From Pseudomonas nicosulfuronedens (GTDB taxonomy: Bacteria > Pseudomonadota > Gammaproteobacteria > Pseudomonadales > Pseudomonadaceae), in assembly GCF_005877905.1 (NCBI RefSeq), contig NZ_SWDV01000012.1, positions 62,001 to 126,000 on the forward strand: a stretch of 64,000 nt of DNA, given 5' to 3'. The notes under the pieces are model-generated. The model did no database searches. It was not told where the DNA came from and worked only from the letters and a program-made list of their open reading frames with translations. Below are positions 3,862 to 19,528 of the stretch, piece by piece. How positions within the stretch are numbered: position 1 is the stretch's first letter; the number at the start of each line of letters is the position of its first letter. The translations under genes and the position numbers were made by a program.

Positions 3862-3886
3862 CAGGGTAAGTCCTGCGCGGTGAAGA

Positions 3887-4069
3887 GCCCCTCTCCCCAA
3901 CCCTCTCCCTGAAGGGAGAGGGGGCTGTTCGGTGTGCGGGTTCTGCCATGTGCGCCCAGGCGAACAACGGCAACGATATCAGGAGTGCAGCAGGATGAAC
4001 GCGGGATCACGCTCTGCTGCTGAGGGTTCCCTCTCCCTTCAGGGAGAGGGCTAGGGAGAGGGAGCCCCC
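3887..4069. repeat. Inverted pair of CCCTCTCCCT hairpin repeats
   Basis: Two copies of a purine/pyrimidine-skewed hairpin element, 3887-3925 and 4028-4069, face each other. Each contains CCCTCTCCCT followed by its own inverted copy AGGGAGAGGG. They sit between the binding-protein gene and the oxidoreductase gene and may act as a 3' stabilising structure for the transporter mRNA. They resemble a widespread Pseudomonas intergenic repeat family. Confidence 0.8.
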
Positions 4070-4079
4070 ACTCAGGCAA

Positions 4080-5105
4080 TTACTTCTGAGCGACTTTTTC
4101 CGACTTGCCGTCATAGCGCTTGCGCCACTCGGCGAGGATCTCGTCGCGGTTCTTCGAGGCCCAGGCGAAGTCGTTCTTGATCAGGCGCTGCTCGTAGTCG
4201 GCCGGCAGTTCGGTCTGCGGCTTGGCGATGCCCGGCTGGGCCAGCACGGCGAAGTTTTCCTTGTACAGCTCCATGGCTTTCGGGCTGGCAGAGAAGTCGG
4301 CGAGCTTCTTCGCGGCGGCTTCATGCTGGGTGCCTTTCACGATACCGGTGGCTTCGATTTCCCAGCCCAGGCCTTCCTTCGGCAGGACGATGTCCAGCGG
4401 TGCGCCCTGGCGCTTGAGCTGCACGGCCGGGTACTCAAAGGAGATGCCGATCGGGAACTCGCCGGCGGCGGCCAGCTTGCACGGCTTGGAGCCAGAGTGG
4501 ACGTACTGGCCGATGTTCTCGTGCAGGGCGTCCATGTAGGCCCAACCCTGCTTCTCGCCGAAGGTCTGCAGCCAGGCGGAGACGTCGAGGAAGCCGGTGC
4601 CCGAGGACGCCGGATTCGGCATGACGATCTTGCCCTTGTATTCCGGCTTGGTCAGGTCCTGCCAGCTCACTGGCTTCTCCAGGCCCAGCTTCTCGGCCTC
4701 GACGGTGTTGAAGCAGATGGTCGCGGCCCAGACGTCCATGCCGACCCACGCCGGCGGGTTAGCCGGGTCGCGGTAGTTCTTGCCGATGGCGTCCAGGTGC
4801 TTGGGCGCGTATTTCTCCAGCATGCCCTGCTGGTCGAGGATGGCCAGGCTGGAAGCAGCCAGGCCCCAGACGGCGTCGGCCTGCGGACGATCCTTCTCGG
4901 CCAGCAGCTTGGCGGTGACGATGCCGGTGGAATCACGCACCCACTTGATCTTGATGTCCGGGTTCTCGGCTTCGAAGGCCTGCTTGTAGGCGGTCAGCTG
5001 TTCCGGTTCCAGGGCGGTATAGACGGTCAGTTCGGTGTCGGCGGCGTGGACCTGGGCGGCGAAGCCGGCCACCACGGCGGCGGCGAGGGCAAGACGTTTG
5101 AACAT
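4080..5105 (-). CDS. phnS: Putative 2-aminoethylphosphonate ABC transporter, periplasmic binding protein
   Basis: A 341-residue periplasmic binding protein of the iron/spermidine/AEP type. The first 21 residues (MFKRLALAAAVVAGFAAQVHA) are a signal peptide cut before ADTELTVYTALEPE. The LTVYTALEPEQLTAYKQAFE start and the later VRDSTGIVTAKLLAEKD stretch are characteristic of the PhnS2 group, assigned to AEP uptake from its gene neighbourhoods. It lies 95 bases after the fused permease gene and completes the transporter. Substrate assignment rests on family and context; ferric iron binding proteins share the fold, but the iron-ligand tyrosine pair is not evident here. Confidence 0.85.
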   Translation of the reverse strand: MFKRLALAAAVVAGFAAQVHAADTELTVYTALEPEQLTAYKQAFEAENPDIKIKWVRDSTGIVTAKLLAEKDRPQADAVWGLAASSLAILDQQGMLEKYAPKHLDAIGKNYRDPANPPAWVGMDVWAATICFNTVEAEKLGLEKPVSWQDLTKPEYKGKIVMPNPASSGTGFLDVSAWLQTFGEKQGWAYMDALHENIGQYVHSGSKPCKLAAAGEFPIGISFEYPAVQLKRQGAPLDIVLPKEGLGWEIEATGIVKGTQHEAAAKKLADFSASPKAMELYKENFAVLAQPGIAKPQTELPADYEQRLIKNDFAWASKNRDEILAEWRKRYDGKSEKVAQK

Positions 5106-5200
5106 GTGGAGCTCCTTGGCAGTGTTGGTCTCCCGCTCGGGGCGGGTTTGTCAGGGGTTGAGCCCGGCAGGTAGACGCCGGGCGACAGCGTCCAGCGGTG

Positions 5201-6916
5201 TTACGGGTTCGCGCCCGTCCTCCAGGCCTGGGAACGGCGCAGCAGGCCGCGCGATGCGCCGGCCAGCAGCAACGACACAGCCGCGGAGGTGAGCAGGATC
5301 AGGGTCGACATGGCGGCGGCGCCGCCGACGTTGCCGGAGTCGTCCATGTTCAGCACGGCGACGGCGGCGAGGATGGTGTCCGGGTTGTAGAGGAAGATCG
5401 CCGCCGAGACCGTGGTCATCGCCGAGACGAACAGGTAGCGGGTGATGTCCAGCAGCGCCGGCAGGCAGATCGGCACCGTGACGCGCAGGTAATGGCGCCA
5501 TAGCGGCATCTTCAGCGACAGCGCGGCGGCCTCGAATTCGCCGTCGAGCTGGCGCAGCGCGGCGGTGGCGGTCATCTGCGCGGTGGTCAGGTAGTGGGCG
5601 ATGGTGCACACCACCAGCAGCGCCATGCTGCCGTAGAACACATGCAGCGGGTTGCCCGGCAGGTTGAAGAAGAACACGTAGCCCAGGCCCAGCACGAGAC
5701 CCGGCACGGCCATCGGCACAAAGCAGAGCATGCGCAGCAGTTGGCTCAGCCAGCGCTGCTCGCGGGTCTTCTCGATCAGGTAGGCGCCGGTGAAGATCAG
5801 CGCGCTGCCGATGATCGCAGTACAGGCGGCCATGGTCAGGCTGTTGCGGTAGGCCAGCCAACCGCCACCGGCAGTGGTGTTGAAGTCGTAGTGGTTCAGC
5901 GACAGCGAAAGGTTATAGGGCCAGAACTTCACCAGCGAGGAGTACACGGCCATGCCCAGCACGCCCAACAGCACCGCGCTGATCAGTACAACGATGGCGA
6001 GGAAGGCGGCATCGCGACGGCGCGAAGGCTTGGGATGGTAGACCTGTGCTCGGCCGCTCATGGCGTCGCCCTGGCGGCGGCGCAGCCAGGTGTCGACGGC
6101 GAAGCTGAGCAGCGCCGGCAGCAGCAGGATCATGCCGATCTGCGCGCCACGGCCGAACTGTTGCTGGCCAACCACCGCCTTGTAGGCTTCCAGTGCCAGC
6201 ACCTGATAGTCGCCGCCCACCACGACTGGCACGCCGAAGTCGGTGATGGTCAGGGTGAACACCAGGCAGAAGGCGGCGAACACACCCTGGCGCGAAGCCG
6301 GCCAGGTGATGCTGCGGAAGGCTTTCCACGGACCGGCGCCCATGCTGGAGGCAGCATCGAACAGGCGCGCATCAGCCAGCGACAGCGCCGAGAGCAGGAT
6401 CATCAGCGCATGGGGAAAGGTGTAGATCGCCTCGCCGAGGACGATGCCCCAGAAACCGTAGATGTTGTCGGACAGCAGGTGACGCAGCAGGCCCTGGTTG
6501 CCGAACAGGTAGATCAGCGCGATGCCCGGCAGCATCGACGGCGCCAGCAGCGGCAGCAGGGAAATCCCGCGCCACAGGCCCTTGGCCGGGATCAGCGTGC
6601 GTTGCAGCGCGTAGGCGAACAGATAGGCTGCCGGCACGACGATGCACGCGACGCTCACGGAAACCTTCAGGCTGTTGCCCAGCAGCCAGTGGAAGTTATC
6701 GCTGCGCAGCAACTCGCCCATGGCCGCCAGGCCGCCGCCCTGCCCTGCCTCGCCGCTGAAGCCGCGCCAGAAGATGGCCAGCAGCGGCATCAGCACCGCG
6801 AGGGTCAGCAGGAGCAGCAGCAGGTATTTGCCGCCACGGACGAACAGACGATCACCCAGATCGCCACGTACCTTGCCGGCGGACAGCGCCGAGCTGTGCT
6901 TCACCACGGCTTCCAT
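5201..6916 (-). CDS. phnU: Putative 2-aminoethylphosphonate ABC transporter, fused permease
   Basis: A 571-residue inner-membrane protein made of two fused permease halves, each with about six membrane helices. Each half carries an EAA-type coupling loop: ASSMGAGPWKAFRSITWP around residue 190 and AALSLKMPLWRHYLRVTVP around 470. This one-chain architecture is normal for the FbpB/PhnU2 group. The start at 6916 lies one base after the ATPase stop, so the two genes are coupled. With the ATPase upstream and the binding protein downstream it forms a complete importer. The assigned substrate, AEP, comes from family membership and the neighbouring oxidoreductase and LysR gene. Confidence 0.86.
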   Translation of the reverse strand: MEAVVKHSSALSAGKVRGDLGDRLFVRGGKYLLLLLLTLAVLMPLLAIFWRGFSGEAGQGGGLAAMGELLRSDNFHWLLGNSLKVSVSVACIVVPAAYLFAYALQRTLIPAKGLWRGISLLPLLAPSMLPGIALIYLFGNQGLLRHLLSDNIYGFWGIVLGEAIYTFPHALMILLSALSLADARLFDAASSMGAGPWKAFRSITWPASRQGVFAAFCLVFTLTITDFGVPVVVGGDYQVLALEAYKAVVGQQQFGRGAQIGMILLLPALLSFAVDTWLRRRQGDAMSGRAQVYHPKPSRRRDAAFLAIVVLISAVLLGVLGMAVYSSLVKFWPYNLSLSLNHYDFNTTAGGGWLAYRNSLTMAACTAIIGSALIFTGAYLIEKTREQRWLSQLLRMLCFVPMAVPGLVLGLGYVFFFNLPGNPLHVFYGSMALLVVCTIAHYLTTAQMTATAALRQLDGEFEAAALSLKMPLWRHYLRVTVPICLPALLDITRYLFVSAMTTVSAAIFLYNPDTILAAVAVLNMDDSGNVGGAAAMSTLILLTSAAVSLLLAGASRGLLRRSQAWRTGANP

Positions 6917-6917
6917 C

Positions 6918-7973
6918 TCAGGCGAACACCTGCAGGCTGCGCGGGGGCAGCGACACCCAGATGTCCGGCGTACCCAGGCGCGGCATGTCCTCCGGCGCCA
7001 GCTCCGCCAACAGCGCGTGGCCCGGCAGTTGCTCCAGCTCGAAGCTCATGCGGCAGCGGTTGCCCAGGAAGGTGATCTCGCGGATCTGCGCACGGAACAG
7101 GTTTTCCTGGTGTACGGCGGGGTTCACGCTGATCGCTTCCGGGCGGCAGAACAGGCGACCCGAGGCACTGGACGCCTGGCTCGGCAAGCGCAGGCTGAGG
7201 CTGCCGACGCGGGCGTGGCCATCGTTGCCGCGCTCGAAGGGCAACCAGTTGCCCTGGCCGACGAACTCGGCAACGAAGGGCGTGCTCGGGGTGCTGTAGA
7301 TCTCCTGGGCGGTGCCGTACTGCTCGATGCGCCCGTGGTTCATCACCGCGATGCGGTCGGCCATCAGCATGGCCTCGTCCTGGTTGTGGGTGACCATCAC
7401 GGTGGTGATGCCCAGGTTCTTCTGCAATTGACGCAACTCGCCACACAGGTGCTCGCGGACGCGCGCATCCAGCGCCGACATCGGCTCGTCGAGCAGCAGC
7501 AGCGACGGGCTTGGCGCCAGTGCGCGAGCCATGGCGACGCGCTGCTGCTGGCCGCCGGAGAGCTGGCCGGGGTACTTCTTCTCGCTGCCGGTCAGGCCGA
7601 CCAGCTCGAGCATCTCGGCGACGCGGCGGCGGGCTTCATCCTTGCTCGCGTTCGTGAGGCCGTAGGTGATGTTCTGCTCGACCGTGAGGTTGGGGAACAG
7701 CGCGTAGGACTGGAACAGGATGCCGTAGTCCCGCGCCTGCGGCGGCAGGTTCGAGACATCGCGCTGGCCCAGGTGCAGGGTACCGTCGTCCTGTTGCTCG
7801 AGACCGGCAATGCAGCGCAGCAGAGTGGTCTTGCCGCAACCCGACGGGCCGAGCAGGCAAACCAGCTCACCGGCCTTGACGTCCAGCGACACGCCGTCGA
7901 GGGCGACGAACTGGCCGAAGCGCTTGCGGATATGGCGCACGCTGAGCGGTGTGCCGGTGAGGGTGGGATGCAT
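6918..7973 (-). CDS. phnT: Putative 2-aminoethylphosphonate ABC transporter, ATP-binding subunit
   Basis: A 351-residue ABC ATPase beginning [20 protein letters not shown]. Walker A is GPSGCGKTT, the Q-loop follows near [13 protein letters not shown], the signature is [15 protein letters not shown], Walker B is LLLLDEP and the switch histidine lies in VTHNQDEA. About 110 extra C-terminal residues form a TOBE-type regulatory domain, as in MalK/PotA-like subunits. The ATG at 7973 is preferred over an upstream ATG at 8015 because the family begins here. It is the first transporter gene of the cluster. The 650-base region upstream holds its promoter, a dyad at 8109-8146 and several repeats. Confidence 0.87.
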
Positions 7974-8108
7974 GGCGGTACCTCGTCTTCTTGTGGTCCA
8001 CGCCGCGTGAGCCATGGCGTGAAGGAACGAGGTCCATGCTAGGGACGGATTGCGACGGCACTATTGCTAAAGGGCCAAGTGCGCCGATAGATCCATAGGC
8101 AGATTTGG

Positions 8109-8146
8109 GTATGGGGGCGAAAAAATTTGCGTAGATGGCCCCATAC
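8109..8146. promoter_or_regulatory. Dyad upstream of the phosphonate transporter, possible LysR operator
   Basis: GTATGGGG at 8109-8116 and CCCCATAC at 8139-8146 form a perfect 8-base dyad with a 22-base spacer, about 140 bases upstream of the ATPase start. Position and symmetry suit a regulator site for the adjacent LysR protein, but no binding data can be read from sequence. Confidence 0.35.
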
Positions 8147-8157
8147 TTGAGCCGACT

Positions 8158-8229
8158 TGTAGGAGCGAGCTTGCTCGCGAACCGCCGGGCACCGTGCCGT
8201 GCAGGTTCGCGAGCAAGCTCGCTCCTACA
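8158..8229. repeat. REP doublet, family A (copy 3)
   Basis: Arms 8158-8182 and 8205-8229 are exact inverted copies of the same 25-base unit found at 1426 and 2592, separated by 22 bases. Confidence 0.9.
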
Positions 8230-8303
8230 GGAAAGACAGGCTCCGGCTTATAGAAGACTTCCAGAGAAACAGCCGCACACTCCGGACCGCCCCGTTCAGG
8301 AGG

Positions 8304-8412
8304 CCTCGTTGAAGCGGAGTTTCAGGGGTTGAGCGGCATGGATGCCGCGAGAGCCGCGATGGGCCAGGGATGGCCCGTCGTGGCGTGCCCCTGAAACTTC
8401 GCTTCAGCGAGG
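8304..8412. repeat. Large inverted repeat
   Basis: The 25-base arms 8304-8328 and 8388-8412 are inverted copies with two differences (core GAAGCGGAGTTTCAGGGG versus CCCCTGAAACTTCGCTTC). The 59-base interior contains a smaller palindrome, GGGCCAGGGATGGCCC at 8361-8376, so the element could form a branched structure. Confidence 0.75.
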
Positions 8413-8624
8413 GTATTTTTCGCCTAGGCGAAAAACCGGATGACAGGGGCAAGACCTTTGCCTCCTTTGGGTCTTTCCAAAGGCGGTCGCCCGAGGGGGC
8501 GAAACAAGATCTCACCGCGCACGCCGAAGCGACGCTGAAATACAAAAGCCAAAGCAGGAAAGCCTGGGCATGCACCAGCTCTGCCAACGAATCGCGGGTA
8601 TGGCCTCCCCCCAGGAGCCAGCCT

Positions 8625-9476
8625 CTACGCCTGCGCCAACGCCAGAAACGCACTCGGCAACCGCGCCTGCCGCCGATCCTTCAGGCAATACAGGTACTCG
8701 TCGATCAGGCTCGCACCCTTGATCTCCAGTACGCACAACTGCGGGTTATCCGGCACTTCCTGGCGAGCGATGATGCTCACGCCGAGGTTGCGGATCACTG
8801 CCTCGCGGATCGATTCGCGGCTGCCGATTTCCAGCATCGAGGCCGGCGTCACCCCCGCCTGCTGCAACATCGCCTCGGTCAGCTGGCGGGTGGTCGAGCC
8901 CGCCTCGCGCATCAGCAGGCAATGGTTGCGCAAGTCGCCCAGGCTCACCGACTGCAGTGCCGCCAGCGGGTGACTGCGGTGCACCGCCAGCACCAGCGGA
9001 TCGCTCCCCAGCACCACACGGGTCAGGCGCGCATCATCCACCTGCTGCGAGGAGGCAGCCAGGTCGACCCGGCACTCGATCAGCGATTCAAGCACTTGCT
9101 GGGAGTTGCCGATCTCCACCGACACTTCGATCTGCGGGAAGCGCTCGCGGAAATTCTTGATCAGCCCGAGCACATAATAAGGAGAGGTGGCGCCGATGCG
9201 CAGGGCGCCCTGCATCTGCCCACAGTTGCGCAGGTAGAACTCGATGTCGGCTTCCTGCTGCAACAGCGCCTCGACCATCGGCAACAGGCGCGCGCCCTCA
9301 TCGCTCAGGGTCAGGCGACGGCCGCCTCGATAGAACAGCTCCACCGCGTACTGGCTTTCCAGGTTGCGGATCTGCGTGGTCACAGTGGGTTGGCTGAGAC
9401 CGAGCTTCTTCGCCGCCTGGGTGATGCTGCCCAGCTTCGCTACCCGGTAGAACGCCTTCAATTCCGCGCTCAGCAT
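8625..9476 (-). CDS. LysR-family regulator of the aminoethylphosphonate cluster
   Basis: A 283-residue LysR-type regulator. The winged helix-turn-helix covers roughly residues 5-62 (LKAFYRVAKLGSITQAAKKLGLSQ, then PTVTTQIRNLE), and the rest is a periplasmic-binding-protein-like effector domain. The start at 9476 gives the standard four residues before the HTH; longer readings reach into the low-complexity upstream region and are rejected. It lies upstream of, and on the same strand as, the AEP-type transporter, and the sequence fits the LysR subgroup known to accompany AEP genes. It probably activates the transporter in response to a phosphonate or a breakdown product. The divergent neighbour is wecB, separated by 254 bases. 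Confidence 0.82.
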   Translation of the reverse strand: MLSAELKAFYRVAKLGSITQAAKKLGLSQPTVTTQIRNLESQYAVELFYRGGRRLTLSDEGARLLPMVEALLQQEADIEFYLRNCGQMQGALRIGATSPYYVLGLIKNFRERFPQIEVSVEIGNSQQVLESLIECRVDLAASSQQVDDARLTRVVLGSDPLVLAVHRSHPLAALQSVSLGDLRNHCLLMREAGSTTRQLTEAMLQQAGVTPASMLEIGSRESIREAVIRNLGVSIIARQEVPDNPQLCVLEIKGASLIDEYLYCLKDRRQARLPSAFLALAQA

Positions 9477-9590
9477 CGACCGATCCGCCTTTTCGAAAAA
9501 TTCATCAACATTTTTTCTCGGCGCTGTCGGCAAACCGGCGCCAGCCCACTGGCGACGCGGCCTGCAGCCAGGCGACAAAACACTCTAAAA

Positions 9591-9626
9591 GGTCAATGTA
9601 CCTGACCTGTATCACTGGCAACACCA
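9591..9626. promoter_or_regulatory. Two dyads in the LysR-wecB divergent region
   Basis: GGTCAATGTACCTGACC (9591-9607) is a GGTCA-N7-TGACC dyad, followed at 9612-9626 by CTGG-N5-CCAG with flanking A/T symmetry. They lie 105-140 bases before the wecB start. They may be operators for the surface-glycan operon or for the LysR gene. No known consensus is matched with certainty. Confidence 0.3.
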
Positions 9627-9730
9627 GTTGTCGCTGGACAGCCCGGACTTGAGCGACTTTCATTGCCCTTGGAAAAATCCCACATGGAAACCGAAGGCGG
9701 CCTCACAAGGGCACGCCCAAGGAGCAATTG

Positions 9731-10885
9731 ATGAAGTACAAAGTCACCATGGTTTTCGGCACCCGTCCGGAAGCCATCAAGATGGCCCCGCTCGCCCGCG
9801 TTCTGCGCCGTACCCCGGAAATCGAGCTGCGCATCTGCTCCACCGGCCAGCATCGCGAGATGCTACAGCAAGTGCTGAACTCCTTCGAACTCGAGGTGGA
9901 CGAAGACCTCGACGTCATGACCCAGGGCCAGACGCTCAACAGCCTGGCCCTGCAGATGATGGGCAAGCTGGACGACAGCTACGACCGCCATCGCCCGGAT
10001 ATCGTGCTGGTCCACGGGGACACCACCACCAGCTTCATTGCCGCTCTCACCGCCTTCCACCGGCAGATCCCGGTGGGGCACGTCGAAGCAGGCCTGCGCA
10101 CCGGCAACATCCACCAGCCCTGGCCGGAAGAAGCCAACCGCCGCCTCACCGCGGTGATCGCCGACCTCCACTTCCCACCGACCAAGGCCTCGCGTGACAA
10201 CCTGCTGCGCGAAGGGGTGAACATCGACCAGATCGAAGTCACCGGCAACACGGTGATCGATGCCCTGCTGTGGATGCGCGAGCACCTGCACGAAACCAAC
10301 TGGACACCCGCTGCCGATTCCCCCCTGGCCAAGTTCACCGGGGACCGCCGCGTCGTGCTGATAACCGGCCACCGCCGGGAAAACTTCGGCAAGGGTTTCG
10401 AGCGCATCTGCCTGGCCCTGGCCGAGCTCGGCCAGCGCTTCCCCGACGTGGACTTCGTCTACCCGGTGCACCTCAACCCGCAGGTGCAGAACGCCGTCTA
10501 CGGCCTGCTCTCGGACAAGCCCAACATCCACCTGATCGCCCCGCAGGACTACCAGCACTTCGTCTGGCTGATGGACCGCGCGTACATCATCCTCACCGAC
10601 TCGGGCGGCATCCAGGAAGAAGCCCCGGCGCTGGGCAAACCGCTGCTGGTGCTGCGCCGCGTCACCGAGCGCCCCGCCGTGCTGGAAGGCGGCACCGTGG
10701 TGCTGGTGGGCACCAACACCGGCCGCATCGTCAGCGAAGCCAGCCACCTGCTGCGCGACGAGGAAGTCTACGAACAGATGAGCCGGGTCTTCAGCCCTTA
10801 TGGCGACGGCCACGCCAGCGAGAAGATCGTCGCCCGGCTGCTGTCCTGGTTCGGTGAATCACGCACGCCAAGCGAGTTCGAATGA
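9731..10885 (+). CDS. wecB: UDP-N-acetylglucosamine 2-epimerase (non-hydrolysing)
   Basis: A 384-residue cytoplasmic epimerase that interconverts UDP-GlcNAc and UDP-ManNAc. Visible family motifs are FGTRPEAIKMAPL at residues 9-21, HGDTTTSF at 95-102, HVEAGLRTG at 117-125, GHRRENFG at 213-220 and TDSGGIQEEAP at 289-299. The ATG at 9731 has AAGGAG seven bases upstream; the TTG just before it is ignored. The stop overlaps the nfrB start (ATGA, 10882-10885). This strongly suggests that its product sugar is dedicated to the NfrB synthase rather than to a general O-antigen or common-antigen pathway, whose other genes are absent here. E. coli WecB is likewise needed for the NfrA/NfrB glycan. Confidence 0.93.
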   Translation: MKYKVTMVFGTRPEAIKMAPLARVLRRTPEIELRICSTGQHREMLQQVLNSFELEVDEDLDVMTQGQTLNSLALQMMGKLDDSYDRHRPDIVLVHGDTTTSFIAALTAFHRQIPVGHVEAGLRTGNIHQPWPEEANRRLTAVIADLHFPPTKASRDNLLREGVNIDQIEVTGNTVIDALLWMREHLHETNWTPAADSPLAKFTGDRRVVLITGHRRENFGKGFERICLALAELGQRFPDVDFVYPVHLNPQVQNAVYGLLSDKPNIHLIAPQDYQHFVWLMDRAYIILTDSGGIQEEAPALGKPLLVLRRVTERPAVLEGGTVVLVGTNTGRIVSEASHLLRDEEVYEQMSRVFSPYGDGHASEKIVARLLSWFGESRTPSEFE

Positions 10886-13056
10886 GCCTCGAACTGGTCG
10901 ATATCCTCACTTACGTTCTCTATGCCCTGAAGTACCTGGCGATCATCCTGGCCGCGCTGATGTTCCTGCTCGGCCTGGATGACCTGTTCATCGACCTGGT
11001 GTACTGGGGCCGGGTGCTGGTGCGCCGCTTCCGCATCTACAACCGCTTCGACCGCGCCGACGAAGAGCGCCTCTTCGCTGCCCCGGAAAAGCCGCTGGCA
11101 ATCATGGTGCCGGCCTGGAACGAGGTCGGCGTGGTGGGCGAGATGGCTCGCCTGGCGGCTTCGACGCTGGACTACGAGAACTACCAGATATTCGTCGGCA
11201 CCTACCCCAACGACCCGCAGACCCAGGCGGACGTCGACGCGGTCTGCCTGCACTACCCCAACGTGCACAAGGTGGTCTGCGCGCGCCCCGGCCCCACCAG
11301 CAAGGCCGACTGCCTGAACAACATCATCGATGCCATCCTGCGTTTCGAGGCCGACGCCAAGATAGAGTTCGCAGGCTTCATCCTGCATGACGCCGAAGAC
11401 GTCATCTCGCCGCTGGAACTGCGCCTGTTCAACTACCTGCTACCGGCCAAGGACCTGATCCAGATCCCGGTCTACCCCTACGCTCCGGAATGGACCGGCT
11501 TCACCGCCGGCCACTACGTCGACGAGTTCGCCGAGAACCACGGCAAGGACGTCCCGGTGCGCGAGGCGCTGACCGGCCAGGTGCCCAGTGCCGGTGTCGG
11601 CACCTGCTTCAGCCGCCGCGCCATCGCCGCGCTGCTGGAAGACGGCGACGGCATCGCCTTCGATGTGCAGAGTCTTACCGAGGACTACGACATCGGCTTC
11701 CGCCTCAAGCAGAAGGGCATGAAGTGCATCTTCGCCCGCTACTCCATCACCGACCCGCAACTGGCGCTCAAGAGCACCTGGGTGCCGGGCATGGACCGGC
11801 GCTTCTCGCAGGTCATCTGTGTGCGCGAACACTTCCCGCGCACCTGGCAGCACGCCATCCGGCAGAAGTCGCGGTGGATCACCGGGATCGTCTTCCAGGG
11901 CACGCGCAACCTGGGCTGGAGCCGCAAGGGCATGCTCAACTACTTTCTCTGGCGCGACCGCCGGGGGCTGATCGCCTACCTGCTGAGCTTCCTGGTCAAC
12001 CTGCTGTTCCTGGTGCTGATCACCATGTGGCTGATCACCAGCCTGTCGCCCAACGCCTGGCGGTTCCCGTCGATCCTGGAAGGCAGCCAGTTGCTGGTGG
12101 TGCTGCTGTTCCTCAACGGCCTGATGCTGCTCAACCGGCTGTTCCAGCGCTTCTGGTTCGTCACCCGCTTCTACGGCATCTTCGAGGGGCTGCTGTCGGC
12201 GCCGCGGATGATGTGGAGCAACTTCGTCAACTTCTTCGCCAACCTGCGCGCGCTCAAGCAGGTAATGGAGATGGGCGACTCGCGCCGCGTGGCCTGGGAC
12301 AAGACCACCCACGAATTCCCCGCCCTCGCCGGCCCGCAGCGCACGCCGCTGGGCCAGCGCCTGAAGGAAAAGGGCCTGATCAGTGAAGAACAGCTGCAAT
12401 CGGCACTGACCAGCCCGGTTCGCCGCCGGCTGGGCCGCGAGTTACTGCTGCGCGAGCAGATCAACAGCACGCAACTGGTGGAAACCCTGGCCGAGGAACT
12501 GGGCGAGGAATGGGCGCCGCTCAATCCCTTCACCCTCGATCCGAAGCTGATCGCGGCGCTGCCGCGCAAGCTCGCGCTGCGCTACGCCGTGCTGCCGGTG
12601 GCTATCGAAGGCGACACCCTGGTGCTCGCCGGCGAGCAGCAGTTCAGCCAGGTATCCCTCGGCGCTATCAGCCGCCACCTCAAACGCCCCGTACGCAGCC
12701 AGCTCGCCCCACAGGGCCGCGTCACCCTCGGCCTGCGCCACTGGTATGGCGGCCGCCACCAGAGTGAAGAAACCCGCTTCATCCTCGACACGCTGCAAAG
12801 CCGGCAGGGCGATGAGGCGCTCATCGAGCGCATCTGCGGCCACCTGGTGATGTTCGGCACCCTGTTGCAGGTACGCGGGATGGTGCCTCCCAGCCTGTTC
12901 AACCAGGCGCTGATCGATTTCGATCCGGAGCAGGATTCGCTCGGCGAGCACCTGATCAAGCGCGGCATCATTACCCAACAGGTACTTGAGGAAGCGCTCA
13001 AGGAACAGGCCAATGAACAGCACGAGGCCTATCGCATCGCCCGGGAGGCCGTGTGA
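10882..13056 (+). CDS. nfrB: NfrB-like processive glycosyltransferase with C-terminal MshEN-like domain
   Basis: A 724-residue inner-membrane glycan synthase. An N-terminal helix (about 15-34) precedes a cytoplasmic GT-2 domain with HDAED at 169-173, TEDYD at 266-270 and QKSRW at 328-332; the last is the QxxRW signature of processive synthases such as BcsA and PgaC. Membrane helices follow at about 362-388 and 402-418. From about 488 the protein has two stretches of the MshEN type, LGQRLKEKGLISEEQLQSAL (489-509) with LGRELLLREQI, and LGEHLIKRGIITQQVLEEAL (687-706). MshEN domains can bind c-di-GMP. Length and layout fit E. coli NfrB (745 residues), required for phage N4 adsorption. It overlaps both neighbours by four bases. 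Confidence 0.9.
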   Translation: MSLELVDILTYVLYALKYLAIILAALMFLLGLDDLFIDLVYWGRVLVRRFRIYNRFDRADEERLFAAPEKPLAIMVPAWNEVGVVGEMARLAASTLDYENYQIFVGTYPNDPQTQADVDAVCLHYPNVHKVVCARPGPTSKADCLNNIIDAILRFEADAKIEFAGFILHDAEDVISPLELRLFNYLLPAKDLIQIPVYPYAPEWTGFTAGHYVDEFAENHGKDVPVREALTGQVPSAGVGTCFSRRAIAALLEDGDGIAFDVQSLTEDYDIGFRLKQKGMKCIFARYSITDPQLALKSTWVPGMDRRFSQVICVREHFPRTWQHAIRQKSRWITGIVFQGTRNLGWSRKGMLNYFLWRDRRGLIAYLLSFLVNLLFLVLITMWLITSLSPNAWRFPSILEGSQLLVVLLFLNGLMLLNRLFQRFWFVTRFYGIFEGLLSAPRMMWSNFVNFFANLRALKQVMEMGDSRRVAWDKTTHEFPALAGPQRTPLGQRLKEKGLISEEQLQSALTSPVRRRLGRELLLREQINSTQLVETLAEELGEEWAPLNPFTLDPKLIAALPRKLALRYAVLPVAIEGDTLVLAGEQQFSQVSLGAISRHLKRPVRSQLAPQGRVTLGLRHWYGGRHQSEETRFILDTLQSRQGDEALIERICGHLVMFGTLLQVRGMVPPSLFNQALIDFDPEQDSLGEHLIKRGIITQQVLEEALKEQANEQHEAYRIAREAV

Positions 13057-16000
13057 AACCGCAACAACCCCTGCTTTACGGCCTCATCCTGGCGAGCATC
13101 GCCGCCCCGCTCGCGCAGGCCGCCGATGACCAGCTCACGGAGTTCCAGCGCTTCCGCAGCTTCCCCTACCTCGACAAGGGCTACAAGGAAGCGAAGAAGA
13201 ACAACTGGGCGGAAGTCGAACGCCTGATGCGCCATCTGCTCGACCGTGTACCGAACAACACCGAGGCGCGCTCGCTGCTGATCCAGTCCCTGGCCAAGCA
13301 GCAGCGCTTCGCCGATGCGGAGAAGGAAGCCCAGGCACTGGCTGGCACCGAGGCCGGCGCCGAGGCATTGACCAATCTGCGCCTGGACCTGATCGAGAAC
13401 GGCCCACCGCCCGAAGCCCAGGTCAACCAGTGGCTGGCCCACGCCGATGCCAACGAGCGTGTACGTCTGTGGCAAGCCTATAGCCTCAAGCTCGGCCAGA
13501 CCCAGGGCGCGGCCAAGGCGCTGGAGTGGCTCGGTACCCTACCACCCGGTAGCGACGGCCGCGTGCTACGCGAGGCCCGGGCAAACTGGGCCGAACAACT
13601 GCGCGACTGGGACACCACCATCACCCAACTCGCCCCGCTGGCCGCTTCCCACCAACTCTCTGCCGACGACTGGCGGCGGCTGGCCAATGCCTACGCCCAG
13701 CGCCTGGAAGAAAAACCGCTGGAGCAACTGATCCAGCAAGCGCCGAATGCCGACTCGGCGCGCCAGGCACGGCTGGCGATCATCGACCGCGCCATTGCCG
13801 TCGAGCAGACCGACGTCGCCAAGCGCTGGCTGCTCACCCTGCCCGAGCAGGATCGCAACGACCCGAAACGCCAGGCGCAGCTGCTGGAGGTCGCCCGTGA
13901 CAGCAGTGACACGGCGCTGGTGGAAAGACTCAGCGACGCTCAGGACCGCCCCTGCCTGGAAACTACCGAGTGGCTGTCGCGCCATGACCAGGCGGCGGCG
14001 CTGGTGAAGCTGCAACAGTGCAAGCCCGCTGAAGATCCGAAGACCTGGCTGGTGCTGGCCCAGCGCCTGGACGCCACCGACCTGCTGGAAAACACCCGGC
14101 TGCCCGAACCCTGGGACACCGCTCGGCGCGACCAACTGGTGGACGCCTGGCGACGCCAGGGACGCACCGATCTGGCACTGGCCTGGCTATCGCGCCAACC
14201 ACAGACACCCGATACCGTGCGCCAGCGCGCCGAACTGCTGCAGGCCCGCGGCCGTACCGGCGAAGCCGCGGCACTGTGGGAGCAACGCTACCGCCAGACC
14301 GGCGACCTCAAGGCGTTGGACCAGGCCAGCTACCTCGCCCTCAACGCCGGGCGCACCGAACGCGCCAAGCAATTGCTCGAAAGCGCCTACGACCGCCGCG
14401 GCGGCAACCTGCCCCCTGCCCTGCTGCAGCGTCTCGCCAGTATTCACGCACGCAGTGACACCCCGCTGGATGTCGCCCGCATCGAATCGCTACTGCCCAA
14501 GGCTGACCCGGTCTCGCGCGGCTACCTGCTCGGCCGCCTGGCCGAGGCCGGGCGCTGCGATGCCCTGCAGCGCTACCTGAGCCCGAACTCCAACACCCCC
14601 GGTGAGCTGCGTGCCCTTGGTCGCTGCGCCATGCCCGCGCGGCCTGGCGAAGCGGTGGTCTACTACCAGGCCGCCATTGCCCACGGCGACCATGACAGCC
14701 AACTGCCGCTGGCCTATGCGCTGGAAGCCGCCGGTGACCCAGCCGGCGCGCTGCGCATCTTCAACGCCCTGCCCGCCAGCGAACTCAACGACAACGCTCG
14801 CCTCACTGCCAGCCGTGCCGCCCTGCTGACGGGCGACAACGCCACCGCCGAACGCTACTGGCAGCAGGCGAAGAAGGGCAGCGCGGACGACTGGGCACTG
14901 GGCGCCAACATTGCCGATGCCCGTGGCGACTATTCACTGGCCCTTACCCGGCACCGCGAGGCCCTGCAACACGAGCCCAACGGCCAGCACTTCTACAACG
15001 CCGCCGGTAGCGCCCAGAAAGCCGGCGACCAGCAGCAGAGCAAGCTCTGGCTGGCCGAAGCGGTACGCCGCGAGCCCAGCAACCCGCGGTTCCGCGCCGA
15101 CTACGGCATGCGCCTGGCCGGCACCGACACGCCGGAAGAACGGCGCACCGCGATTCCGTACCTGGAACGCGCCACCCGTGACTACCCCGAGGACTTCCGC
15201 CTGGGTGAAACCCTCGCCTGGCGTTATGACGAGGCCGAGGACAGCTTCGCCGCCCGCCGCGAGCTGCGTCGAGTGATCGACCTGGAACAGGAGCCGGTGG
15301 CAGCCGATGACGAGTACGGCAGCCTCGAAGCCCGCCGCTACCGCCAGCGCCGCGCGCACCAGACGCTGTCCCAGCGCGACAACCTGACCATCGCCAGCAC
15401 CTGGTCGCCCGCCGGTGTCACCACGGTGCCGATCCTCAATGGCGACAACCAGACCGGCAACCGCCGCCGCGCGCAATCGCAGAACCTGCAGACATTCATC
15501 TGGGACCACGCGCTGGGCGAGGAACCGACCCGCAACGGCAGCACCCTCTCGGTGTATGGCCGCGCGATCGCCGGCAACGAAGGGCGCAAGAACTACACCC
15601 AGACCCTCGCTGCCGGCTTCGGCCTGCGCTACAAGCCCTTCGGCGACTACAACCTCAACCTCTACAGCGAGCTGTACAAGCAGAACACCGTGAACGACGA
15701 CGTCGATCCTGACGACGCCTTCGAAGGTCTGCGCTGGCACGAGATCGGTACGCCGGAGAAGTTCGAGCGCTACATCCGCAAACGCGACAAGTACGGCCAG
15801 ACCTCCACCGACTTCCTGCTGCGCGCCACCGCCTCCTTCCTCGATCAGGGCGAGTACCGCAACGACTGGCGCGTGGACGAGAGCGACTGGGACGAGCGCT
15901 TCCTCTACACCGACTTCGCCTGGTGGACCCACGCTGGCGACCATCAGTGGGTCTCGCGCTACCAGCAGGGTCACGCCTGGAAGCTGCCGGTGGACTCGCC

Positions 16001-16235
16001 GCAGACGATCATGCCCTACGGCTTCGCTGAATTCTCCGCACAGGACCCGAGCAACGACTGGCGCCAGGACCTGCGCAGCGGCGTCGGCCTGCGCTGGCAG
16101 TACTGGTACGGTGAGGATCGCTACAACGCCTACCGCGCCCACGTCACCGTGCGCACCGAATACCAGTTGGGCATGGCAGGCAATCTCTATGAGAAGGCCA
16201 ACGGCTGGCTGGTGGGACTCGAGGTGAACTTCTGA
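13053..16235 (+). CDS. nfrA: NfrA-like outer-membrane glycan exporter, TPR plus beta-barrel
   Basis: A 1060-residue exported protein. Residues 1-23 are a signal peptide ending AQA before ADDQLTEFQ. The next roughly 750 residues are tetratricopeptide-like helical repeats (for example NNWAEVERLMRHLLDRVPNN and ADAEKEAQALAGTEAGAEAL). From about residue 790 the sequence alternates like a beta-barrel with many aromatic residues, and it ends VGLEVNF, with the terminal phenylalanine of outer-membrane proteins. This is the arrangement of NfrA, the phage N4 receptor, and parallels PgaA and BcsC. The start is GTG at 13053, overlapping the nfrB stop (GTGA). It probably forms the periplasmic scaffold and outer-membrane pore for the polymer made by NfrB. 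Confidence 0.9.
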   Translation: MKPQQPLLYGLILASIAAPLAQAADDQLTEFQRFRSFPYLDKGYKEAKKNNWAEVERLMRHLLDRVPNNTEARSLLIQSLAKQQRFADAEKEAQALAGTEAGAEALTNLRLDLIENGPPPEAQVNQWLAHADANERVRLWQAYSLKLGQTQGAAKALEWLGTLPPGSDGRVLREARANWAEQLRDWDTTITQLAPLAASHQLSADDWRRLANAYAQRLEEKPLEQLIQQAPNADSARQARLAIIDRAIAVEQTDVAKRWLLTLPEQDRNDPKRQAQLLEVARDSSDTALVERLSDAQDRPCLETTEWLSRHDQAAALVKLQQCKPAEDPKTWLVLAQRLDATDLLENTRLPEPWDTARRDQLVDAWRRQGRTDLALAWLSRQPQTPDTVRQRAELLQARGRTGEAAALWEQRYRQTGDLKALDQASYLALNAGRTERAKQLLESAYDRRGGNLPPALLQRLASIHARSDTPLDVARIESLLPKADPVSRGYLLGRLAEAGRCDALQRYLSPNSNTPGELRALGRCAMPARPGEAVVYYQAAIAHGDHDSQLPLAYALEAAGDPAGALRIFNALPASELNDNARLTASRAALLTGDNATAERYWQQAKKGSADDWALGANIADARGDYSLALTRHREALQHEPNGQHFYNAAGSAQKAGDQQQSKLWLAEAVRREPSNPRFRADYGMRLAGTDTPEERRTAIPYLERATRDYPEDFRLGETLAWRYDEAEDSFAARRELRRVIDLEQEPVAADDEYGSLEARRYRQRRAHQTLSQRDNLTIASTWSPAGVTTVPILNGDNQTGNRRRAQSQNLQTFIWDHALGEEPTRNGSTLSVYGRAIAGNEGRKNYTQTLAAGFGLRYKPFGDYNLNLYSELYKQNTVNDDVDPDDAFEGLRWHEIGTPEKFERYIRKRDKYGQTSTDFLLRATASFLDQGEYRNDWRVDESDWDERFLYTDFAWWTHAGDHQWVSRYQQGHAWKLPVDSPQTIMPYGFAEFSAQDPSNDWRQDLRSGVGLRWQYWYGEDRYNAYRAHVTVRTEYQLGMAGNLYEKANGWLVGLEVNF

Positions 16236-17110
16236 TGCGCCGCCTGATTTTCACCCTCGCCCTGCTCTTCTCTGCCGCTACCGCGCACGCCGATGATCGC
16301 CTGTTCTATCAGCCGCTCAATGTCGACTCCTCGCTGAGCGACGCGCAGTGGCAGCAGATCTGGCGAGCCAGCGCGGCCCAGGGCGCCAAGACCCTGATCG
16401 TGCAGTGGACCGCCTACGGCGACTCCGACTTCGGCGGAGCCAACGGCTGGCTCGCGCGCTCCCTGAAAAGCGCCCACGACAACGGCCTGCAATTGGTCCT
16501 CGGCCTGTACATGGACCCGGCCTACTACCAGCGCCAGGGCGAGCTGGACACCCCCGGCCTGGAAGCCTACTGGCAACATCAGCTCGGCCGCTCGCTGGCA
16601 CAGCAGCGGCAAGTGAGCGAGCAGTGGAAGCTGCCGGTCGCCGCCTGGTACCTGCCGATGGAACTGGACGACTGGCACTTCCAGGCCGTCGAACGCCGCC
16701 AGGCGCTGCAGCACCAGCTCAAGGACTTCGCCGGCCAGCTGAAGGCACCGCTGCAATTGAGCGCCTTCTCCGGCGGTAAACTGGCGCCGCAGGTGTACGG
16801 CAACTGGCTGGGACAGATCGCCGGGCTGGGTGTGCAGGTCTGGTGGCAGGATGGCGCCGGTACCGGCGCACTACCCGAGCGCGTGCGCCAGGCCTACGCC
16901 GCCGCCCTGCCCTGTCCGGTCGGTATCGTTCGCGAAGCCTTCCGTCAGACCAGCGCTGCCGGTCAGCCCTTCAGGGCCGAACCTGCCGCACCTTCGAGCG
17001 TCTCCACGGGCTGTCACACCAGCGCCGTCTTCGAGGTCCGTTATCGCCCCTGGGGCAAACTCCTGCTGGATAACCAGCAGTCGCACGCCGGCAGCGCCCT
17101 GCACCCTTGA
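16235..17110 (+). CDS. DUF4434 secreted protein of the Nfr cluster
   Basis: A 291-residue secreted protein with signal peptide MRRLIFTLALLFSAATAHA, cut before DDRLFYQPL. The body resembles the DUF4434 family, a TIM-barrel glycoside-hydrolase-like fold: KTLIVQWTAYGDSDF suggests a first strand, LVLGLYMDPAYYQ another, and AWYLPMELDDWHF contains acidic residues at the place where glycosidases keep catalytic carboxylates. The ATG overlaps the nfrA stop by one base (TGATG), so it belongs to the operon. A periplasmic role in trimming or degrading the glycan is inferred from fold and position; no activity is known to me. E. coli has a gene of uncertain function (ybcH) beside nfrA that may be its counterpart. 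Confidence 0.8.
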   Translation: MRRLIFTLALLFSAATAHADDRLFYQPLNVDSSLSDAQWQQIWRASAAQGAKTLIVQWTAYGDSDFGGANGWLARSLKSAHDNGLQLVLGLYMDPAYYQRQGELDTPGLEAYWQHQLGRSLAQQRQVSEQWKLPVAAWYLPMELDDWHFQAVERRQALQHQLKDFAGQLKAPLQLSAFSGGKLAPQVYGNWLGQIAGLGVQVWWQDGAGTGALPERVRQAYAAALPCPVGIVREAFRQTSAAGQPFRAEPAAPSSVSTGCHTSAVFEVRYRPWGKLLLDNQQSHAGSALHP

Positions 17111-17165
17111 GACCGGCCCCCGCGCGCAACCTGTCCGGCGCCGCGCGGGGGCAAGTGAGTTCGTC

Positions 17166-17171
17166 TATGCT
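17166..17171 (+). promoter_or_regulatory. Possible -10 element before the diguanylate cyclase gene
   Basis: TATGCT lies 36 bases before the ATG. Just upstream is a strong GC hairpin (GCCCCCGCGCG with CGCGCGGGGGC, about 17116-17152) that has no T run. The cyclase could therefore have its own promoter as well as read-through from wecB-nfrBA. Confidence 0.3.
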
Positions 17172-17206
17172 CGCGCGAGCGATCCCGCACTCGTACAGGA
17201 CCGTTC

Positions 17207-18274
17207 ATGTTCAAGACCATCGAATCGGAAGTCGTGAAACAGCACGTTTCACCTGAACTGCGCGCCGAGTTCCTGCAACATGATTTCGAGCGGCTAAAAG
17301 GCTTCAGCCTGCTGGTATTCGGCATCAGCATCGGTATCTGGCTTCTCTTCGACCTGATCGTCAGCTTCCAGACCGGCCAGGGTTTCAGCTACATCTCGCT
17401 ACTGTTCCTCGCCGCCTTCCTCGTCCTCTTCGCCCTCACTGCCGCCGCCCGCCGCGCCCTGCACTTCTACCTGATCAACTTTGCCTTTGTCGTGACTTTT
17501 GCCTGGGGAGCCCGCCTGCTGATCGAGGGCATACCCAGCGACGTCCGCCAGGCCTGGCTGGTGATCTGCGCCTCCACCGTGCTTTACAGCGCGACGGTAT
17601 TGCCGCTGAACCGCCCGGCCTTCTTCGCGGTATTGCTCGTCACCTGGGTGCTGCTCAACCCGTTCCTGGGCAACGTGCCCGAGTTCAATGTGCGGCACAG
17701 CATGCTGATCTGCTATCCGGTCTTCATCAGCGCGCTCACGGTGTACATCTTCCACCACCTCAGCCAGGCCAAGCTGCACAACTACGCCATGGCCCGTCTG
17801 CTGCTGGACCAGGCCTACATCGATACCCTCACCGGTATTCCCAACCGCCGCTCATTCATGGCCCGGGTGGGCAAGCGCCTGGAAGAAGACGGCGAGCAAC
17901 GCTACCTGGCGATGATCGACATCGACCATTTCAAACGGGTCAACGACACCTACGGCCACGACATCGGCGACGAAGTACTGACCCGTGTCGCGCTGGCGAT
18001 CAAGCATCAAATGGGTGACTTCGAATTCGCCCGGCTGGGCGGCGAGGAGTTCGGCCTGTACCTCTGGGGCCTGAATGCCGACCAGGCGCAGGCGCGGCTC
18101 GAGCAATTGCGCCAGGCCACCGCAGACTTGCCCGGCCACCCCAACGTCACCATCAGCCTGGGCCTCGCCCACCTGAGCCTGGAGGGCAGTCTCAGCGAAG
18201 CGTTGATCAAGGCTGACAAGGCGCTCTACAGCTCCAAGCACAATGGCCGCAATCGAACGACCTATTCGCCCTGA
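17207..18274 (+). CDS. Membrane diguanylate cyclase (GGDEF), Nfr cluster
   Basis: A 355-residue protein with a six-helix N-terminal membrane region (about residues 32-185) and a C-terminal GGDEF domain. The catalytic signature is GGEEF at 278-282, preceded by DTLTGIPNRRSFM at 206-218 and MIDIDHFKRVNDTYGHDIGDEVL, so the cyclase should be active. The inhibitory I-site RxxD, expected nine to six residues before GGEEF, is absent (M and F occupy the key places), so it probably lacks product feedback. It follows the DUF4434 gene by 96 bases on the same strand, before a terminator at 18283. Local supply of c-di-GMP to NfrB is the natural inference, paralleling the dedicated cyclase described for E. 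coli NfrB. Confidence 0.88.
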   Translation: MFKTIESEVVKQHVSPELRAEFLQHDFERLKGFSLLVFGISIGIWLLFDLIVSFQTGQGFSYISLLFLAAFLVLFALTAAARRALHFYLINFAFVVTFAWGARLLIEGIPSDVRQAWLVICASTVLYSATVLPLNRPAFFAVLLVTWVLLNPFLGNVPEFNVRHSMLICYPVFISALTVYIFHHLSQAKLHNYAMARLLLDQAYIDTLTGIPNRRSFMARVGKRLEEDGEQRYLAMIDIDHFKRVNDTYGHDIGDEVLTRVALAIKHQMGDFEFARLGGEEFGLYLWGLNADQAQARLEQLRQATADLPGHPNVTISLGLAHLSLEGSLSEALIKADKALYSSKHNGRNRTTYSP

Positions 18275-18314: not shown

Positions 18315-18391
18315 TGGTGTCCCGGAGAGGGGTCGAACCTCCAACCTTCCCCTTAGGAGGGGGACGCTCTATCCAATTGAGCTACCGGGAC
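18315..18391 (-). tRNA. tRNA-Arg (anticodon CCT)
   Basis: The minus strand folds as a 77-base tRNA: acceptor GTCCCGG/CCGGGAC, D-arm GCTC-AATTGGATA-GAGC, anticodon arm TCCCC-CTCCTAA-GGGGA, T-arm with TTCGACC, and an encoded CCA at 18315-18317. The anticodon CCT reads the rare arginine codon AGG. Confidence 0.93.
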
Positions 18392-18483: not shown

Positions 18484-18960
18484 ATGATCACAGACGACGG
18501 TGCCCTGCCCGATTCCCCTTTCGCCACCTTCGATGTGCGCGTCGCCACGGCAGACGATGCGGCGGCCCTGGCTCCGCTGCTGCAGCAACTGGGCACGCGT
18601 GACCCGCTGCCCGACACGGCGTTGCTCGCCCTCGCCCTGAGCGATCAGCAACCTTCGCGGGTGACGCTGATCGCCGAGCGCGATGGAGCCTTGCTTGGCA
18701 CCTGCACGTTGCACCTGATCGAACACATCGCCCACGGTTTCGCCCGCTCGGCGATCCTCGAGGACATGGTGGTGGACAGCCGCGCACGAGGCCAAGGCAT
18801 CGGCCAGGCGCTGATCGGCCGGGCCGTGGAATGGGCGCGGGATTGGAAGTGCTACAAGCTGGCCCTCTCCAGCCACCAGGACCGGGAAATGGCGCACCGC
18901 TTCTATGCGGCGATGGGCTTCGCGCCCCACGGTGTCAGCCTCTCACTGAACCTGGACTGA
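18484..18960 (+). CDS. GNAT acetyltransferase, PhnO-like
   Basis: A 158-residue GNAT-fold acyltransferase. The acetyl-CoA-binding segment is VVDSRARGQGIGQALIGRAVEWA (motif A, R-x-x-G-x-G), and the final strand pair is REMAHRFYAAMGF. By eye it resembles E. coli PhnO, an aminoalkylphosphonate N-acetyltransferase, in the pattern LHL-x-x-H-x-x-H before the acidic strand, the ARG loop and the AHRFY segment. The ATG at 18484 is preceded by GGAG. It converges on phnN and the two 3' ends overlap by 26 bases. A phosphonate role is supported by that neighbour but is an inference; many GNAT proteins acetylate other amines or protein termini. Confidence 0.7.
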   Translation: MITDDGALPDSPFATFDVRVATADDAAALAPLLQQLGTRDPLPDTALLALALSDQQPSRVTLIAERDGALLGTCTLHLIEHIAHGFARSAILEDMVVDSRARGQGIGQALIGRAVEWARDWKCYKLALSSHQDREMAHRFYAAMGFAPHGVSLSLNLD

Positions 18961-19528
18961 CCTCAGCTGGCGCCTGGGCATCCGGGGGAGCGAGCAGGTC
19001 CAGCAGATGACCGACCGTTACCTCCAGGGACACCGAGTTATCCAGCTCCACCAACGGCCCCGGCAGGCCATCGGCGAAGTGCGCATTGCGCGCCAGGCGC
19101 TCCTCGATTTCCGCCAGCGTCTCCCGTCCGCGCTTGAGCAGGCGTTGACGCAACACCTCGGAGTCGACCTTCAGCAGCACGGCGATCAACTGCGGATAAC
19201 GGCGACGAGCCTCGGGCAGGTACTTGCGCGAACCATTGACCAGTACGTCATGGCCGGCGGCCAGCCAGTCATCGATTTCGCGGGGAATGCCATAGTGCAG
19301 GCCATTGGCGCGCCAACTCATGGCGAACGCACCGGAGCGCTCCAGTTCGGTGAACTCGTCGACGCTCACCGAGTGAGCTTCTTCACCATGCGCCTCGGCG
19401 GAACGGGTGATGACGCGCCGGACGATCCGGCAATCCATCGCGGCCAGCGGAACGCTGGCGGCCTGCAACACGCTGTCCTTGCCAGAGCCCGAAGGGCCCA
19501 TCAGGAAAATCAGTCTGCCTGGGGTCAT
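18935..19528 (-). CDS. phnN: Ribose 1,5-bisphosphate phosphokinase PhnN
   Basis: A 197-residue guanylate-kinase-like P-loop enzyme beginning MTPGRLIFLMGPSGSGKDSVL. The GPSGSGKDS loop and the later RRVITRSAEAHGEEAHSV segment are typical of PhnN, which phosphorylates ribose 1,5-bisphosphate to PRPP, the last step of the C-P lyase pathway. In P. aeruginosa phnN is at the end of the large phn operon next to amrZ. Here amrZ is still the neighbour but phnC-phnM are absent from the 485 bases between them. The gene looks intact. It may therefore serve a C-P lyase encoded elsewhere or an alternative PRPP route. Confidence 0.88.
   Translation of the reverse strand: MTPGRLIFLMGPSGSGKDSVLQAASVPLAAMDCRIVRRVITRSAEAHGEEAHSVSVDEFTELERSGAFAMSWRANGLHYGIPREIDDWLAAGHDVLVNGSRKYLPEARRRYPQLIAVLLKVDSEVLRQRLLKRGRETLAEIEERLARNAHFADGLPGPLVELDNSVSLEVTVGHLLDLLAPPDAQAPAEVSPGSVRG

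Follow-up and report, generated by a model that had tools for sequence, protein, structure and literature searches.

The block of five genes at positions 9731-18274 of the window, by which we mean the whole 64,000-nucleotide stretch of Pseudomonas nicosulfuronedens DNA that was analysed, raises the question of which pathway it encodes, how far it is self-sufficient and whether its product could serve as a phage receptor. A sequence-only reading had described the block as wecB-nfrB-nfrA-DUF4434-GGDEF, coding for a c-di-GMP-linked surface glycan. We confirmed the five genes with their coordinates and common + strand, the successive overlaps, which are 4, 4 and 1 bases long, and the 96-base gap ahead of the GGDEF gene (Table 1). 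The parts claimed for it, namely an epimerase, a GT-2 synthase with HDAED, TED and QxxRW motifs and an MshEN tail, an NfrA ending in F and a GGEEF protein, were also recovered by motifs and models. On one side of the locus are 2-aminoethylphosphonate transport genes and their LysR regulator (2734-9476), and on the other is phnN (18935-19528).

Table 1. Features of the nfr locus, in positions of the window
Feature	Position	Strand	Details
Inverted repeat AGGTCA-N7-TGACCT, candidate operator	9590-9608	.	upstream of wecB
Candidate sigma-70-like promoter TGGACA-N17-TTTCAT	9635-9663	+	conserved upstream of wecB
wecB (nfrC), UDP-GlcNAc 2-epimerase	9731-10885	+	ATG, 384 aa; TIGR00236 472 bits (cut-off 210); PF02350 384 bits
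nfrB, GT-2 synthase with C-terminal MshEN c-di-GMP domain	10882-13056	+	724 aa; NF008411 equivalog 1227 bits (cut-off 1170)
nfrA, TPR and outer-membrane barrel exporter	13053-16235	+	GTG, 1060 aa; PF13283 NfrA_C 89 bits (cut-off 25); TPR_19
ybcH, DUF4434 protein, probably periplasmic	16235-17110	+	291 aa; NF007404 363 bits (cut-off 344); PF14488 68 bits
Probable membrane diguanylate cyclase, GGEEF, without RxxD I-site	17207-18274	+	355 aa; PF00990 116 bits (cut-off 24)
tRNA-Arg(CCT), conserved right border, outside the pathway	18315-18391	-	ARAGORN

Assignment to the nfr pathway

The components of the E. coli NGR system were each compared with the window. WecB as the UDP-ManNAc source (TIGR00236) and YbcH (NF007404) both scored above the cut-offs of their models, and so did NfrB. 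The features of an NGR synthase, that is, a GT-2 domain with DxD, TED and QxxRW followed by a C-terminal MshEN domain, were found in NfrB by profiles and residue mapping, the motifs reading HDAED, TED and QKSRW and the MshEN domain scoring 42 bits with PF05157 (cut-off 23) and 53 bits with NF053729 (cut-off 38). In an alignment, the protein was 53% identical to NfrB of the E. coli isolate Ec-U14-2, and the equivalents of D169, D267, W330, L490, G491 and L537, which were probed by mutation in E. coli K-12 NfrB (PMC8669469), were all identical in the window. NfrA is the single weak assignment among the five genes: its NfrA_C match (PF13283), the mark of the NGR exporter, was above the Pfam cut-off and its C-terminal residue is F, but its score of 1038 bits with the NCBIfam equivalog NF007302 was under the cut-off of 1223. 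The wecB gene of the operon was the sole wecB homologue found in the genome at E<=0.001.

We conclude that the locus is very probably a Pseudomonas nfr (NGR-type) exopolysaccharide operon, since the WecB, NfrB and YbcH models and the NfrA_C and MshEN domains all pass their cut-offs, the mutation-tested NfrB residues are identical, the five-gene order is kept across Pseudomonas (see below) and the same gene association has already been described for pseudomonads (PMC8669469). The NfrA score under its equivalog cut-off and the loose pairing of cyclase and NfrB weigh against it. In the proposed pathway, WecB would make UDP-ManNAc in the cytosol, and NfrB, an inner-membrane processive GT-2 activated by c-di-GMP on its MshEN domain, would build the polymer and pass it on. 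YbcH would act as a periplasmic accessory or processing protein, NfrA would export the chain across the outer membrane through its TPR and barrel parts, and the downstream cyclase would supply c-di-GMP, probably locally, in a DgcJ-like role with a different N-terminal part. The window itself provides the gene content and order, the kept active and binding residues, the single wecB and a conserved candidate promoter, while the ManNAc polymer, its activation by c-di-GMP, its export and its local control are carried over by analogy from work on E. coli.

A different polymer, such as GlcNAc or a modified ManNAc, could be made instead, with a likeness to E. coli NGR that is mechanistic only. The identity of just 53% to E. 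coli NfrB would allow this, and the composition of NGR is itself a postulate in its source paper (PMC8669472), but we consider it improbable in view of the linkage of wecB in all 15 nfr-positive genomes of the genus and its presence elsewhere in 10 of 10 genomes where it is unlinked.

The sequence-only reading was therefore right to place the locus in the NfrA/NfrB glycan pathway, complete with an epimerase and a cyclase of its own, yet this had already been published (PMC8669469, section 11). Junkermeier and Hengge reported in 2021 that organisms without another WecB homologue have one joined to nfrB, as in Pseudomonas soli SJ10, that most pseudomonads have a GGDEF protein linked to the nfr operon and that a cyclase gene lies directly 3' of nfrBA-ybcH in some Pseudomonas, which they took as a hint of a specific role (PMC8669469); in the same year, Sellner et al. 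described a clustered nfrA-nfrB-wecB in Achromobacter (PMC8669472). The five-gene association is thus not new, and together with the E. coli nfrBA-ybcH operon these clusters make the compact locus a known arrangement. The statement that the genes are scattered in E. coli held for wecB and dgcJ, which are located apart, but failed for the other three, as nfrB-nfrA-ybcH form one operon there, which rules out a scattering of all five.

E. coli NGR and the window have in common an NfrB with GT-2 and MshEN parts and identical key residues, NfrA, YbcH, WecB and a cyclase; they differ in that E. coli has wecB in the ECA operon and dgcJ as a separate gene, whereas all five genes stand together in the window. 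The E. coli nfrBA-ybcH genes are also near a tRNA-Arg gene (L063:12877-12953), with envY in between, and the window locus likewise lies near tRNA-Arg. The gene association matches that given in the text of PMC8669469 for operons of the P. soli SJ10 type, and the five-gene order of P. soli LMG 27941 (L119) is identical to that of the window, but the neighbourhood between 2-aminoethylphosphonate transport genes with LysR and tRNA-Arg(CCT) is unlike that of the P. soli-type operons. The Achromobacter nfr cluster (PMC8669472) and the Acinetobacter PGR locus (PMC12507263) share with the window an NfrB-like synthase and a WecB homologue, and a role of the surface glycan in phage adsorption was proposed for the former and shown with mutants for the latter. 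Unlike the window, both are described as carrying an extra BcsB homologue and the Achromobacter cluster also O-acetyltransferase homologues (PMC8669472, PMC12507263); Acinetobacter PgrA is reported to be without a GGDEF motif (PMC12507263), whereas the window cyclase has GGEEF.

Conservation and control region

Whether the five-gene order recurs as a unit in other genomes had been left by the sequence-only reading as a check, and we found the block in 15 of 25 genomes of the genus and in 58 of 80 named loci (the best 80 of 153 NfrB relatives, 8 of them shared with the genus set), so the order is not due to chance. The genus set included the window's own genome, and NfrB was counted at E<=1e-50. 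In all 15 positive genomes, wecB, nfrA, ybcH and the cyclase adjoined NfrB in an identical order, bounded by the LysR gene and tRNA-Arg(CCT), and the overlaps in the 14 relatives of the window were 1-4, 4 and 1 bases with a gap of 30-105 bases. Across the family, including these 25 genomes, 47 of 298 had an NfrB match at E<=1e-100 with 38-100% identity, indicating that the locus is patchy.

The 8 shared loci among the best 80 of 153 were L072-L077, L115 and L149, and some of the 80 stop at contig ends. The 58 five-gene loci included that of P. soli (L119) and also four with a partial best single match, for wecB in L108 (10%) and L130 (36%) and for nfrA in L085 (46%) and L096 (63%). Among the other loci, no cyclase was seen in 11, no linked wecB in 9 and neither in one (L125), and the last (L145) had just a weak GGDEF match on the opposite strand. 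Within the same best 80 of 153, strains named P. nitroreducens, P. pseudonitroreducens and Pseudomonas sp. 21, CAN1 and PDM18 had an NfrB with 94-97% identity to that of the window, which probably places the organism in the P. nitroreducens group.

A second NfrB-like family with ~40% identity was found in some Pseudomonas genomes (L153, L154, L155), where the fetched stretches of 4.6-5.0 kb gave no match to wecB, nfrA, ybcH or the cyclase. We also used ice-nucleation-positive genomes as a proxy for P. syringae. Among 398 genomes searched, 7 were above the ice-nucleation family cut-off; of these 7, one had an 80% NfrB relative with wecB and part of nfrA in a 5.2 kb stretch (L152), three had only ~40% relatives, with no other nfr-locus gene matched in stretches of 4.6-5.0 kb, and three had none.

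Two elements were found upstream of wecB. The GTCA-N7-TGAC core of the inverted repeat was present at 15 of 15 nfr-positive sites of the genus and at none of the four nfr-negative sites that keep the LysR gene. This absence, with a degenerate remnant seen in the alignment of one of the four (G014), speaks against a repeat that merely serves the LysR neighbour, and it is possible that LysR acts on nfr. The repeat occurred in 8 of the 80 named loci (best 80 of 153), all of them genomes of the genus set, and it was not enriched genome-wide (11 places, compared with 20 for the reversed control), which rules it out as the mark of a wider regulon. A further A+T-rich copy (L070) stands where no recognisably related gene was found. 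A FleQ-type site, in the pattern that we assume for it, was dropped because the spacing of the repeat is off by one base.

The promoter form GGACA-N17-TTTCAT was likewise found at all 15 nfr-positive sites and at none of the 4 nfr-negative ones that keep LysR, and in 13 of the 80 named loci (best 80 of 153). A relaxed form, GGACA-N17-TT[TG][TC]AT, picked after some of the loci had been viewed, was present in 54 and absent from 26 of these 80; with spacers of 14, 15, 16, 18, 19 or 20 it gave no match, and 200 single-base shuffles gave a mean of 0.01. The 54 loci are related and therefore do not count as 54 independent cases. A consensus scan of the window for promoters did not list the TGGACA-N17-TTTCAT candidate. 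We interpret the candidate as a promoter of housekeeping type, from which transcription would start near 9670. The window contained no exact match to the FliA-type consensus, which we took in the form presumed to be standard. By contrast, E. coli nfr is FliA-controlled (PMC8669469).

The cyclase, locus loss and probable allele exchange

The last gene of the block probably encodes a diguanylate cyclase, judging from a GG(D/E)EF site within a GGDEF domain (PF00990, 116 bits) that reads GGEEF invariantly in 12 aligned orthologues. The position usually occupied by the RxxD inhibitory site, whose motif and spacing we took in their usual form, reads MGDF in the window cyclase, and none of the 17 cyclase proteins compared has RxxD there. 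The first half of the protein looks, by eye only, like a membrane-helix bundle. E. coli NGR uses DgcJ, but an orthologue of DgcJ was ruled out for the window (NF040885, 85 bits, with the cut-off at 500), and instead of a DgcJ-type periplasmic dCache domain only GGDEF was above the Pfam cut-off.

How tightly the operon depends on its own epimerase and cyclase was evaluated with the loci that lack one of them. All 10 genomes without linked wecB among the best 80 of 153 loci have a wecB elsewhere with 54-55% identity, in line with the published rule on linked WecB (PMC8669469). The same 80 included 13 loci without a cyclase on the right strand, and 12 of these genomes were searched (L144 left out): no cyclase orthologue was found at E<=1e-45 in 10 of the 12, and the other two were L122, where the locus stops at the contig end, and L145. 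From this difference, the epimerase seems obligatory and the cyclase looks like a usual yet dispensable partner. A seemingly broken cyclase piece was seen after ybcH in L091. The idea of a self-sufficient module accordingly stands for the epimerase, as the sole wecB homologue of the genome, and is weak for the cyclase.

Four genomes of the genus have the same flanks without the operon (G018, G003, G014 and G022; loci L056, L060, L055 and L054, respectively). No nfr gene was matched between the flanks at E<=1e-8 in G018 and G003, a wecB fragment remains in G014, and an intact cyclase stands alone in G022. In G017 (L053:4335-6617), wecB is followed by the cyclase near a contig end, and the genome has no NfrB at E<=1e-50. 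In G012 (L040:1405-10653), ~9 kb of extra DNA separates the cyclase from tRNA-Arg(CCT), and the tRNA end is partly duplicated next to the cyclase, which resembles the insertion of an element at the tRNA gene. The cyclase kept in G022 after nfr loss and the 10 genomes without an orthologue indicate that the pairing of cyclase and NfrB is loose.

The cyclase also differs from the rest of the operon in its relationships. Among the window, G015, G006 and G012, the cyclases share 96-98% identity, but they are only 70-75% identical to those of seven close relatives, compared with 94-98% for NfrB. At the DNA level, the window and G015 are 62-91% identical to G016 between ~17101 and 18300 and 76-97% identical outside, with the dip starting near 17001. 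A joined tree of the other four proteins placed these four genomes inside a nine-genome group (support 100/100) that excludes G023 and G020, whereas in the cyclase tree G023 and G020 group with the other five (96/97) and the four stand outside; each data set rejected the group of the other (AU p 0.016 and 0.019), the groups having been named after the trees were seen. Given the identity contrast, the DNA dip and the conflicting trees, a probable exchange of the cyclase allele is the simplest reading.

The cyclase could then be a passenger, or a general cyclase beside the nfr operon, with NfrB responding to the general pool of c-di-GMP. The gap that takes the place of an overlap before the gene, nfr without an orthologue in 10 of 12 genomes, the lone cyclase of G022, the wecB-cyclase pair without nfrB in G017 and an allele apparently exchanged separately from the other operon genes would all fit such a passenger. 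However, the gene lies on the same strand directly after ybcH both in all 15 nfr-positive genomes of the genus and in 67 of the 80 named loci (best 80 of 153) whether wecB is linked or not, an orthologue at E<=1e-60 was confined to 2 of the 10 genomes of the genus that lack nfrB, and E. coli NfrB contacts its cognate cyclase (PMC8669469). We therefore regard a passenger as rather unlikely and keep to a cyclase that would probably serve NfrB locally. A hairpin in the ybcH-cyclase gap was given no weight as a sign of uncoupling, as its folding was just modestly better than that of shuffles (z -1.89), 8 of 200 of which did equally well.

Phages with gp65-like proteins

The sequence-only reading had further suggested a receptor for N4-like phages of Pseudomonas. 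We searched 50,697 phage records with the N4 tail sheath gp65, which is said to recognise NfrA (PMC12892993). The full-length protein matched 118 records, 13 of them named Pseudomonas. Its first 427 residues matched 57, including 8 named Pseudomonas that represent six phages (inbricus, Arace01, Ppu-503, PspYZU01, Pavpe01 and Lebethron). For inbricus (Schitoviridae), the identity to N4 gp65 was 63% over these 427 residues and 54% over the whole. Residues 428-1059 matched 103 records and, among the matches listed, added uligo and Ulitu01 over 43% of the part, while the last 323 residues matched 36 records, with inbricus only among Pseudomonas. In sum, gp65-like proteins are present in at least 8 Pseudomonas phages. 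With N4 gp66, the only Pseudomonas phage matched was inbricus, in 2 records and over 47% of the gp66 length.

Hosts were named for 11 of the 13 Pseudomonas gp65 records as P. syringae, P. taiwanensis or Pseudomonas sp., and none of these 11 named P. aeruginosa. The P. aeruginosa N4-like phage DEV, which is present in the phage collection, was not among the 57 matches to the first 427 residues; its reported receptors are LPS and LptD (PMC12892993), and that of Ab09, another N4-like phage of P. aeruginosa, is LPS (PMC6467409). In Acinetobacter, an analogous locus is needed by phage StAb3, which infected 31 of 39 isolates, the locus being missing or disrupted in the other 8 (PMC12507263). On the basis of the gp65 distribution, these receptors and the StAb3 analogy, it is plausible that gp65-bearing phages of Pseudomonas use the locus product as a receptor; for the N4-like phages of P. 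aeruginosa, such a role is unsupported. The resemblance to gp65 may also reflect structure alone. Among the open-licence papers listed, we found no publication on nfr as a phage receptor in Pseudomonas.

Residues 428-1059 of gp65 (L062:5016-6911) were ~24-25% identical to tail proteins of E. coli phages of ~142-150 kb, some of which are annotated as tail carbohydrate esterase. We take these phage records to be of the Vequintavirinae type. Vequintavirinae also depend on NGR (Sellner et al., PMC8669472), and this part of gp65 may therefore be a shared glycan-recognition part.

One could go further and suppose both that the nfr glycan and NfrA form a receptor pair for varied gp65-bearing Pseudomonas phages, namely the six phages above with gp65 parts in uligo and Ulitu01, and that phage pressure accounts for the locus having been cleanly lost several times and for the exchange of its cyclase allele; we consider this combined proposal doubtful.

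The locus is a real, ordinary member of a published system. The new details added here are a candidate promoter, losses that follow a modular pattern, a probable exchange of the cyclase allele and a list of Pseudomonas phages with gp65-like proteins, which support a receptor role in an indirect way only. The locus represents a further Pseudomonas group in which the NGR pathway stays compact, accompanied by the enzyme for its precursor and, as a rule, by a cyclase. Should the polymer act as a phage receptor in Pseudomonas, the presence or absence of the locus would predict susceptibility to gp65-bearing phages, as with StAb3.
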